NCBI GenBank assembly: GCA_002162695.1
Contig: MAAM01000009.1
Coordinates: forward strand, 1-64,000
DNA from: Cycloclasticus sp. 46_120_T64
GTDB taxonomy: Bacteria; Pseudomonadota; Gammaproteobacteria; Methylococcales; Cycloclasticaceae
Direction of reading: 5' to 3'
DNA: 64,000 nucleotides
Made by a program: the position numbers and the translations under genes. Under the pieces are notes generated by a model, which had not been told where the DNA came from, searched no databases, and saw only the letters and a program-made list of their open reading frames with translations. The number at the start of each line of letters is the position of its first letter. Position 1 is the first letter of the stretch. Shown in pieces: positions 645 through 3,534 of this stretch.

Positions 645-2552
645 ATGGGTACGGTTAAAGAGCAAAGCGATAAGCAAACGCTTGGGTTTGAAGCAGAAAC
701 AAAGCAAGTGTTGAGCATGATGATTCACTCGCTTTATAGTAATAAAGAGATATTTTTACGTGAATATATTTCGAATGCATCTGATGCAGCCGATAAACTA
801 CGTTTTGCGGCGTTATCGGATGAGGCTCTCTATGAAGGCGATGGCGATTTAAAAATTCGTGTCAGTGTCGATAAAGAGGCGAAAACTTTAACCATTGCTG
901 ATAACGGTATTGGTATGAGTGCTGAAGAGGTGAAAAAGTATATCGGTACGATTGCTCACTCCGGCACTAAAAAGTTTTTTGAATCACTAACCGGTGATGA
1001 GAGTAAAGACAGTCAAATGATTGGCCAGTTTGGGGTTGGTTTTTATTCTGGCTTTATCGTTGCTGATAAGGTGAGTTTGGTAACGCGTAAAGCGGGTGCT
1101 GAAAGCTCATCGGCAGTCCGCTGGGAATCAACTGGTGAAGGCGAATATACTCTGGAGACTGTTGAAAAATCGGCTCGTGGTACAGAAGTAACCTTGCACT
1201 TGAAGGAAGAGGAGGGTGAGTTTTTAGAGTCTTATCGTCTACAGAGCATTATCCATAAGTTTTCTGAGCACCTAGATATTCCTATTTTGATGAAAAATGA
1301 GAATAAGGCTGAAGATAAAGAAGACGAGCCTGATGAAGTCGCTATTAATAGTGCGACGGCCATGTGGTCAAAAGCTAAAAATGAGTTAAAAGAAGAAGAC
1401 TATAACGAATTTTATAAACAAACCTCTAATGACTTTCAAGATCCTCTTGCGTATACACATAGCAAGGTAGAGGGAACTAATGAGTACACCTTATTGTTGT
1501 ATGTACCTGCTAAAGCTCCTTTTGATATGTGGGATAGGGAGTCTAAGACGGGCGTTAAATTATACGTAAAGCGCACATTTATCATGGAAGGTGGTGAGTT
1601 GATGCCGCGTTACTTGCGTTTTATCAAGGGTGTGATTGACTCAGACAGCTTGCCGTTAAATGTTTCTCGTGAATTATTGCAGCAAAGTAAGCAGATTGAT
1701 TCACTGAAAGCGGGCGCGGTTAAAAAAGTGTTGTCGCTAATTGAAGGTTTATCTAAGAAGCAGCCTGAGCAATATGCAGCTTTATGGGCTGAGTTCGGTG
1801 CGGTGCTTAAAGAAGGTCCTATTGAAGACGTAAAAAATAAGGATCGTGTTGCTAAGTTATTACGTTTTGCATCAACAAAAACTGATGGTAAACAAAGCTT
1901 AGGTTTGGCTGAATACATCGAGAATATGCAACAAGGGCAGGACAAAATCTACTACTTAACGGGTAGCGCGTATGCCACCGTTAAAAATAGTCCTCACCTC
2001 GAAGTCTTCAAGAAAAGGGGTATTGAGGTGCTGTTGCTTACGGACCATGTGGATGAATGGTTGGTTCAACATATGCCCGAGTTTGATGGCAAGTCACTAC
2101 AGTCAGTTGCAAAAGGTAATTTGGATCTTGATGGTGCTGATAATAAAGATGATGCTGATAAATCAGATGATGATAAGAAGGTCGAGGAGTCTTTAACTAG
2201 TGTTTTGGAGCAAATTAAGAAAGAGTTAGAGGGTAAGGTTAAAGAGGTGCGAATTAGTACGCGTTTAACAGACTCTCCTGCGTGTTTAGTTGCCGATGAG
2301 CATGAAATGGGTGCTCATATGGAACGGATTATGAAAGCAGCAGGCCAAGATATGCCGCCAACGTTGCCTACATTTGAAGTGAATGCTGAGCATGCCTTAA
2401 TTCAGCGCTTAAAAGATGAGGCTGATGATGAGAGGTTCGCGGATCTAGCTAACTTGTTATTTGAACAAGCCTTATTGAGTGAAGGTGGCCAGTTAGAAGA
2501 TCCAGCAACGTTTGTGCATCGTTTAAATAAATTGCTGCAATCGTTGTTATAA
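645..2552 (+). CDS. htpG: Molecular chaperone HtpG (Hsp90)
   Basis: Bacterial Hsp90, an ATP-dependent cytoplasmic chaperone. At 635 residues it has the family's normal length. The N-terminal GHKL ATPase carries the Glu40/Asn44 helix (ISNASDAADKLRF), the DNGIGM loop (86-91) and GQFGVGFYS (127-135). The middle domain has the conserved SRELLQ segment. A very acidic Asp/Lys-rich insert lies near residues 495-520, before the C-terminal dimerisation domain. The start follows GAGGG at a normal distance. The gene is monocistronic: heat-shock promoter in front and a strong hairpin terminator behind. Confidence 0.98.
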   Translation: MGTVKEQSDKQTLGFEAETKQVLSMMIHSLYSNKEIFLREYISNASDAADKLRFAALSDEALYEGDGDLKIRVSVDKEAKTLTIADNGIGMSAEEVKKYIGTIAHSGTKKFFESLTGDESKDSQMIGQFGVGFYSGFIVADKVSLVTRKAGAESSSAVRWESTGEGEYTLETVEKSARGTEVTLHLKEEEGEFLESYRLQSIIHKFSEHLDIPILMKNENKAEDKEDEPDEVAINSATAMWSKAKNELKEEDYNEFYKQTSNDFQDPLAYTHSKVEGTNEYTLLLYVPAKAPFDMWDRESKTGVKLYVKRTFIMEGGELMPRYLRFIKGVIDSDSLPLNVSRELLQQSKQIDSLKAGAVKKVLSLIEGLSKKQPEQYAALWAEFGAVLKEGPIEDVKNKDRVAKLLRFASTKTDGKQSLGLAEYIENMQQGQDKIYYLTGSAYATVKNSPHLEVFKKRGIEVLLLTDHVDEWLVQHMPEFDGKSLQSVAKGNLDLDGADNKDDADKSDDDKKVEESLTSVLEQIKKELEGKVKEVRISTRLTDSPACLVADEHEMGAHMERIMKAAGQDMPPTLPTFEVNAEHALIQRLKDEADDERFADLANLLFEQALLSEGGQLEDPATFVHRLNKLLQSLL

Positions 2553-2645: not shown

Positions 2646-3047
2646 CTAAAACCTCAAATAAATGCGTATTGGCTGATGGCGGGCATACGAATGTCGCTTG
2701 CTGCGTGATGTAGGGTAAGGGCTTGAGTAGTATTTGCTCGCTTGTAGGTGTGGATAGTAGTTCTGTTTCAGTGCCTTATGCTGCTGCCTACGTGCCTGGT
2801 GTGAGTAGTGTTTTGCATGCTTATAAGGCAAACTTTGCAGTATAGCGTTGGGATGATTGCTGTGCCGTGATGGGCGGTGATGATGTTTCCAGTGCCTGAT
2901 GGGCTTTGTCTGCTGCGTGTGGTGGAACGGGTGTTGATAGATTGAATGCTGCTTGGCCGATAAGAATGTTCGCGGGTCGCTTTGTGCAAGCAATGTAGGG
3001 CTGATGAAGATGAAACTGAAAAAGGCGCAAGTAACGAGTGTTTTCAT
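2646..3047 (-). CDS. Small exported His/Lys/Tyr-rich protein of unknown function
   Basis: Not recognised as any named family. The 133-residue product starts with a typical signal peptide (MKTLV, hydrophobic core, cleavage probably after LLAQ near residue 22). The ~111-residue mature part has about 17 His, 20 Lys/Arg and 10 Tyr but only one acidic residue, with clusters such as HWKHHH and KYYSSPYP. A longer upstream frame exists, but this ATG is preceded by AAAGGATAAG, a good ribosome binding site, and gives the signal peptide. It ends at the bidirectional terminator and lies 97 bases after queF on the same strand. Metal or polyanion binding is possible from composition only. There is no cysteine in the mature part. 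Confidence 0.7.
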   Translation of the reverse strand: MKTLVTCAFFSFIFISPTLLAQSDPRTFLSAKQHSIYQHPFHHTQQTKPIRHWKHHHRPSRHSNHPNAILQSLPYKHAKHYSHQARRQQHKALKQNYYPHLQASKYYSSPYPTSRSKRHSYARHQPIRIYLRF

Positions 3048-3060
3048 GATCTTATCCTTT

Positions 3061-3092
3061 AACTGCGCTAACGGTATTATTAGCGTGCAGTT
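3061..3092 (-). promoter_or_regulatory. Imperfect inverted repeat in the leader of the His-rich gene
   Basis: AACTGCGCTAA (3061-3071) and TTAGCGTGCAGTT (3080-3092) are complementary apart from a 2-base bulge. The element lies 13-45 bases upstream of the start codon at 3047, just ahead of the ribosome binding site. It could be an operator or an RNA hairpin. There is no T-run, so it is not a terminator. Confidence 0.45.
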
Positions 3093-3144
3093 AAAGAATA
3101 AGTTATTGCGATGAATACGAGCTGAATACCAGCCCTTGGTATAA

Positions 3145-3534
3145 TTAAGGGAGTTGTACAGGCGTGGCTGGCAGCCAATCAGCCGCTTTATGTTCGGCAA
3201 CAACGGTTGTGTAAACCCCTCCACGGACATTAAACTCGGCAGATAAACGCATAAACCGAGGTTCGCAGGCTTTTACTAAGTCATTAAGAATCTCATTGGT
3301 AACTGCTTCATGGAATGCGCCTCTATCACGGTAAGACCATACATAAAGTTTAAATGATTTAAGCTCAATGCAGCTTTCATTGGGCACGTATTCTAGTGTC
3401 AGTGTGGCGAAATCAGGCTGACCTGTTTTAGGACATAAGCAGGTGAACTCTGGGGTGTCGATGCGAATGGTGTAATCGCGTTCGGTATTAGGGTTTGGGA
3501 ATGTTTCAAGGTCGGTGTTTGCTTGTGTGCTCAT
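3145..3534 (-). CDS. queF: NADPH-dependent 7-cyano-7-deazaguanine reductase
   Basis: QueF reduces preQ0 to preQ1 in queuosine synthesis for tRNA. The 129-residue length fits the short, unimodular class (YkvM type) rather than the ~280-residue E. coli class. The signature CPKTGQPDF is present with the nucleophile Cys34 and Asp41 at the same 7-residue spacing as in the B. subtilis enzyme, followed by a Glu-rich [13 protein letters not shown] segment. No other queuosine gene is nearby. Transcription may run on into the His-rich gene, since no terminator is visible between them. Confidence 0.95.

Follow-up and report, generated by a model that had tools for sequence, protein, structure and literature searches.

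A small open reading frame at 2646..3047 on the minus strand of the window (the whole stretch of 64,000 nucleotides of Cycloclasticus sp. 46_120_T64 analysed here) is almost certainly a real gene. Its product would be a small Sec-exported, probably disordered, polycationic protein rich in His and Tyr. The gene would be activated by an OmpR-family response regulator (RR), encoded in an operon with a PepSY-like protein and a histidine kinase (HK), an arrangement of the DbfQRS/BqsRS kind. The RR may act through a direct-repeat box, TTCAG-N6-TTCAT, located 10 bp upstream of the -10 hexamer. The overall reading, a regulator-switched, read-through-locked, exported polycationic protein that coats lipopolysaccharide (LPS) and can bind metal, is given a probability of about 0.4.

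The open reading frame encodes 133 aa. The signal peptide covers residues 1-21 (2985..3047, minus strand), with the cut after LLA set by eye. The mature part was counted as 112 aa, and contains 17 His, 20 Lys+Arg, 10 Tyr, a single acidic residue, and no Cys (pI 11.0). The Shine-Dalgarno (SD) core AGGA (3055..3058, minus strand) starts 11 nt 5' of the ATG. A preliminary description of this DNA had reported the frame with its signal peptide, good ribosome binding site, unusual composition, and shared terminator; all of these are present as described. The terminator is a bidirectional intrinsic fold at about 2578-2612 (-23.8 and -25.3 kcal/mol; z about -7.5 on both strands), common to the small gene and its convergent neighbour. 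A consensus terminator scan missed it, probably because its T run lies inside the stem. The convergent neighbour, which we take to be htpG (645..2552, plus strand), is a synteny marker; the upstream gene on the same strand, presumably queF (3145..3534, minus strand), is a possible source of read-through transcripts. The end of an rRNA operon was seen by eye at 181-297, with an apparent 5S gene just ahead of htpG. An overlapping 194-aa open reading frame from 3230 was rejected, since it runs through the end of queF and the promoter. The length of the small frame is only mild evidence for a gene: when the bases of the 592-bp intergenic stretch were shuffled, 12 of 2000 shuffles reached a frame of 133 aa. 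Conservation is the stronger proof.

Orthologues were located by synteny, using queF as the marker, after single-sequence searches gave nothing convincing (no relative in the genus below E 0.05; best 0.058). queF was found in 16 of the 18 genus genomes, giving 17 loci, and htpG is adjacent in 16 of these loci (15 genomes, with G007 counted twice). A same-strand open reading frame lies between htpG and queF in all of the 16 adjacent loci, and so in 15/15 genomes with this adjacency. Fifteen of the frames are unbroken. They encode proteins of 105-167 aa (pI 10.0-11.4), each with a signal peptide, whose hydrophobic N-terminus is kept throughout, and a Cys-free body rich in His, Tyr, Asn, Lys, and Arg. 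An Ala in the region of the signal-peptide cut is invariant in these 15 proteins. The shortest protein (105 aa) is that of G003, a genome 80% complete. At the locus on the second contig of G007 (L037) the open reading frame is at the same place with its frame broken; the two versions of the htpG-queF locus in this one assembly (L028 and L037) probably reflect mixed strains. The G002 (73% complete) and G006 (58% complete) genomes gave no htpG or queF match, and were placed outside the locus counts. In G016 queF is located elsewhere and the small gene has been lost; 3' of htpG (L074), inspection by eye showed only broken sequence with remnants that resemble transposases.

The orthologues share 17-26% identity with the window protein. 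In the closest pair (L034 and L035), dN was 0.043 and dS was 0.212 (dN/dS about 0.2), and the changes at the three codon positions numbered 5, 11, and 19, which shows purifying selection in this pair. The sequence changes fast, but the composition and the two ends are kept. Conservation of the frame in close relatives and the dN/dS of the frame had been named beforehand as checks in the preliminary description; both came out in favour of a gene.

The small gene appears confined to Cycloclasticus among the genomes searched. An order-wide profile search of 311 genomes found it in 15 of the 18 genus genomes, and gave no convincing relative in the 293 other genomes of the order. Weak profile matches in three of these 293 genomes were rejected as orthologues; by eye they are low-complexity lookalikes. 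One is a His-rich part of an efflux-type protein, and the others are two exported proteins, one rich in Arg and Ser and one short and Gly-rich. A scan of genome contigs with the window protein gave no match, and the same scan with the protein of L028 gave one locus, L076, at 100% identity. The locus DNA had no match in the phage collection. The small protein was not described in the titles or abstract openings of the Cycloclasticus literature covered, in part, by the search. The earlier remark that no similar family is known also held, as the Pfam and NCBIfam searches with the 15 members and the PDB search with the window protein gave no significant match. The best NCBIfam match was OmpX (E 0.0088, in one of the 15 members); the best Pfam match had E 0.094 in one member, and PFF1_TM was matched in six of the 15 (best 0.13). 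The best PDB match had E 1.1. AlphaFold2 modelling with the 15 sequences gave a mean pLDDT of 55 and a pTM of 0.18, with helices at residues 3-15 and 83-95 only. The model, which was built from a shallow alignment, suggests that the small protein is probably disordered.

The C-terminus was not part of the preliminary description. It forms a conserved amphipathic strand, PIRIYLRF in the window protein (2649..2672, minus strand) and GLNxYLRF in the genus consensus. It is the most conserved part of the 15 orthologues besides the signal peptide, with hydrophobic residues at alternate positions and Phe as the last residue in 14/15 (Leu in the G003 copy). We take this strand to resemble the outer-membrane beta-signal. 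It could mimic the tail of an outer-membrane protein, engage BamA or proteins of the DegS/DegP type, and modulate outer-membrane assembly stress. However, the remainder of the protein looks too polar and too short for a barrel; by eye only the last strand fits an outer-membrane beta-barrel, and the low-confidence AlphaFold model contains no strands, there or elsewhere. Such tail mimicry is considered very unlikely. Under the preferred reading of an exported coat protein, the strand may instead dock the protein to the outer membrane or to the machinery that assembles it.

The body of the protein is conserved in character rather than in detail. The "almost acid-free" composition noted for the window species (one acidic residue) is less pronounced in the relatives, in which the mature parts contain 2-11 acidic residues. 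Conservation of the His clusters in related genomes had been named as a finding that would support the gene. The His-rich basic composition is indeed kept genus-wide, but the number of His varies from 8 to 29 per mature protein, with strongly variable spacing and 0 to 10 HH/HxH pairs. The mature proteins also contain 15-28 Lys+Arg, and none of the 15 has Cys. Binding of metal or LPS, or a part in a structural matrix, as proposed earlier, is possible as judged by composition alone. One alternative is a periplasmic metal buffer or sink (for Zn, Cu, Ni, or Fe) with no surface role. The abundance of His without Cys would suit such a function, and a two-component system encoded next to PepSY proteins, BqsRS, is responsive to Fe(II) according to the available parts of two reports (PMC4682146, PMC12714742). 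A buffer would not explain the Lys and Arg residues present in every orthologue. The His count and clustering vary widely, and the flanking htpG and queF are not metal genes. A dedicated metal buffer is therefore regarded as quite unlikely. In the coat reading, the exported protein would coat or bridge the anionic LPS, and its histidines could bind divalent metal. From this composition and the class of the regulator, a cationic, metal-capable LPS coat induced by envelope or cation stress is the favoured but tentative proposal.

The region upstream of the small gene contains a promoter-like element of fixed geometry. The direct-repeat box TTCAG-N6-TTCAT (3111..3126, minus strand), a putative site for an OmpR-family RR, is followed after 10 bp by the predicted -10 hexamer TATTCT (3095..3100, minus strand; TATYCT in the genus). 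From this geometry, transcription is predicted to start at 3088 on the minus strand, 7 nt after the -10 hexamer. The arrangement TTCAG-N6-TTCAT-N10-TATYCT was found upstream of the gene in 15 of the 16 loci; the letters in the gaps vary while the spacing is fixed. The exception is G003, in which the box has decayed.

The genomes were searched with patterns of different stringency. The strict spelling gave 16 matches in 15 genomes. Fifteen of them are at the small-gene locus (on both contigs in G007), and the remaining one (G003:C165) lies inside a coding gene read as lon. A relaxed-geometry search gave 38 matches, 15 at the small-gene locus and 23 elsewhere, with 7 in the reversed control. The off-register control (N10 instead of N11 after TTCA) gave 24 matches, none at the small-gene locus, with 6 in its reversed control. 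Since 23 matches compare with 24 for the off-register spacing, the relaxed box is not enriched outside the locus, and most of the other matches must be taken as background; 18 of the 23 were inspected. In this relaxed search the two-component operon of G012 was matched before the box was sought there. When two mismatches were allowed, 93 matches were found, mildly above the reversed control (48), and 14 of the 93 were at the small-gene locus. Two one-mismatch matches (in G005 and G013) lie 48 and 47 nt 5' of the PepSY-like gene. Finally, a pattern covering both sites gave 37 matches across 18 genomes, of which 15 fell at the small gene, 14 at the operon, and 8 elsewhere; the reversed control gave 8. 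This pattern was composed after both sites had been seen, and its matches there are partly by construction; the informative parts are therefore the equality of the remainder with the control (8 versus 8) and the lack of any other recurrent place. By coordinates, no third place recurs among these matches (one of the eight others, G003:C165, was inspected).

Some further matches were noted. A promoter of the form TTCA-N7-TTCA-N11-TATAAT lies 5' of pedF-like genes in six genomes (L077, L079, L080, L081, L082, and L085). The G000 protein was identified as PedF (cytochrome c-550) by NCBIfam TIGR04494 (197.8 bits; cut-off 122), and the other five were assigned by likeness; these genes are mostly followed by one for a solute-binding-like protein. 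The pedF promoters possibly represent a third member of the regulon, or another regulator. In one genome only (L089, G011:C120), a relaxed box lies about 150 nt 5' of a gene whose product carries the KCGExKCG repeat of HvfA-like RiPP metallophores; this protein passed the domain model and scored below the cut-off of the full HvfA model. In the window's own genome, a relaxed box (L078, G000:C3:29353-29384) lies 5' of a gene for a 229-aa exported protein, of which the 160 residues searched gave no NCBIfam match.

The second recurrent place of the box is an operon in which a gene for a small exported PepSY-like protein is accompanied by those for an OmpR-family RR and a kinase. In G012 the three genes are side by side (L084), and the RR and HATPase domains were found. 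The PepSY-like protein was identified in 16 of the 18 genomes, with the RR beside it in 15 of these 16; in G013 the contig ends. The Pfam PepSY match is weak (15/16 members at E<=1, best 2.7e-4). From its sequence, the operon fits the DbfQRS-like layout, with a PepSY-domain protein next to the RR and the HK. TTCAG-N6-TTCAT is present upstream in all of the 16 operons, and the first in-frame ATG downstream of it follows at a distance of 26-106 nt. The chance of such a box in a 300-nt stretch is about 3 in 10,000 per strand with equal bases, and somewhat higher in AT-rich DNA. A hexamer TANNNT follows at N10 in 13/16 operons (TAAACT in eight of them), and this geometry resembles that of TATYCT at the small gene. 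The boxes of the G000 and G008 operons are variants outside the pattern covering both sites. Because the box precedes its own operon, the RR is the candidate to bind it. On sequence evidence, the small gene probably belongs to the regulon of this PepSY-like/RR/kinase system, a connection that goes beyond the preliminary description. The G016 genome (98% complete) gave no match to the small gene or the PepSY-like protein, and no RR was found there at 1e-25; as this is a reduced genome, the joint loss may reflect general decay. The search of G003 (80% complete) yielded no PepSY-like gene and, as the best RR match, a 49% paralogue; this genome still has the open reading frame of the small gene.

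The same regulon could also serve a different purpose, in which the small protein is a periplasmic signalling partner that feeds back on the kinase or on the PepSY-like protein. The two recurrent homes of the box, the two-component operon and the small gene, are as expected of a dedicated feedback loop, and a small periplasmic protein that tunes a kinase is known from DbfQ and DbfS (available text of PMC12714742). The body of the small protein is, however, of low complexity, predicted to be disordered, and fast-evolving, unlike a specific protein ligand. By analogy, the PepSY-like protein already fills the role. A feedback ligand is accordingly judged unlikely.

Folding of the leader identified a hairpin that covers the SD, also beyond the preliminary description. 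The palindrome spans 3051..3102 on the minus strand; the SD is in its right arm (...GGATAAG), the pairing partner of the left arm (CTTATYC...). The window hairpin has an MFE of -26.4 kcal/mol (z -8.3), and those of the relatives have z values of -2.3 to -7.0. When the leaders were folded from the left arm onward, the pairing probability of the SD was at least 0.75 in 16/16. Four leaders (L023, L028, L032, and L037) carry about 50 extra nt with further hairpins, while the outer stem and the box are kept; in L036 the outer hairpin pairs are broken. RNAalifold gave 13 pairs, none with a compensatory change, and covariation therefore does not prove the hairpin. A covariance model of the leader (R1) found the small-gene locus in 15 genomes and otherwise two places (E 0.37 and 0.83), with 150 of the 719-1517 first-look candidates scored per genome.

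The -10 hexamer is located in the left arm of the palindrome, so a transcript started at this promoter would be without most of the arm, and its SD would be much cheaper to open. Transcripts entering from queF would carry the hairpin in full, and would be poorly translated. The calculated cost of opening the SD (8 nt) had a median of 13.2 kcal/mol in read-through RNA versus 2.9 kcal/mol in promoter-started RNA, and the cost was lower from the predicted start in 15/15 loci with the box (differences of 1.0 to 13.7 kcal/mol). In promoter-started RNA, pairing of the SD remains the more probable state in 12/15 loci (median unpaired probability 0.34); the unpaired probability is below 0.05 in L022, L023, L024, L025, and L030. 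The gain in unpaired probability over read-through RNA exceeds 0.05 in 10/15 loci. The consensus scan found no minus-strand terminator between queF and the small gene, although the same scan had overlooked the one downstream. A lock against read-through from queF is a plausible function of the hairpin, at somewhat less than even odds. The partial pairing of the SD in promoter-started RNA counts against this lock and the overall explanation, and in favour of an alternative in which the hairpin is a regulatory RNA (a thermometer, a riboswitch, or an sRNA target) acting on a full-length leader that starts upstream of 3102. The consistent pairing of the SD, also in the four leaders whose insertion keeps the outer stem, agrees with such a switch, and a second AACTGC copy, seen by eye, could form an alternative hairpin. 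Yet the spacing from the direct-repeat box to the left arm is exactly 10 bp and the arm reads like a -10 hexamer, and a similar geometry of box, N10, and hexamer is present 5' of the two-component operon. Moreover, the leader (3045-3104) has no Rfam match up to E 10. An RNA switch is considered fairly unlikely.

Under the preferred reading of a regulator-switched coat protein, the kinase would, by analogy, probably sense envelope damage or cationic/metal stress. In its most specific form, a DbfQRS-type sensor would have one dedicated genus-wide output besides its own operon, a disordered polycationic "shield". The shield would be made only when the sensor fires, and read-through mRNA would be hardly translated, because a single palindrome has the -10 hexamer in one arm and the ribosome binding site in the other. 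This specific form is doubtful. If true, the two recurrent homes of the box, one of them a secreted protein, would provide an unusually clean target for what a DbfQRS-like sensor switches on. It would also represent a compact promoter design, with the -10 hexamer and the SD as the arms of one palindrome. For the oil-degrading marine Cycloclasticus, the system may be relevant to the way in which the envelope withstands hydrocarbons or metals. For BqsRS/CarSR of Pseudomonas aeruginosa, we know of no His-rich secreted target of such kind.

The closest likeness is to DbfQRS of Vibrio cholerae and its relatives, whose operon likewise combines a small PepSY-like exported protein with an OmpR-family RR and a kinase. 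As stated in the accessible parts of a 2025 study (PMC12714742), DbfQRS of V. cholerae is activated by outer-membrane perturbation, DbfQRS-like modules occur in many bacteria, across phyla, and neither the signals nor the DbfR regulon had been defined before that study. The small protein studied there, as far as those parts describe it, is the PepSY protein DbfQ encoded beside the two-component system; in Cycloclasticus, the operon's box is shared by a second, unlinked, non-PepSY exported protein. BqsRS, which the same text likens to DbfQRS, has in common with the Cycloclasticus system a direct repeat of pentamer-N6-pentamer and PepSY proteins adjoining the two-component system, and it mediates defence against cationic stressors (available sections of PMC4682146 and PMC12714742). 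The BqsR box is reported there as TTAAG-N6-TTAAG, whereas the Cycloclasticus pentamers are TTCAG and TTCAT, which sets the box apart from that of the BqsR regulon. Among curated families, PhoPQ (NCBIfam NF008078/NF008077) scored best for the G012 RR (221.5 bits against PhoP; cut-off 336) and for the C-terminal part of the kinase (187 bits against PhoQ; cut-off 497); PhoPQ membership was rejected, as both scores are far below the cut-offs. The CreB box is TTCAC-N6-TTCAC. Its half-sites also start with TTCA and have equal spacing, but the G012 RR scores 160 bits against CreB, below its score against PhoP. In the transposase genes of IS10 and IS50, an inverted repeat hides the SD only in transcripts started upstream. 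The SD-hiding repeat described here would be similar, but would guard a chromosomal, signal-controlled gene.
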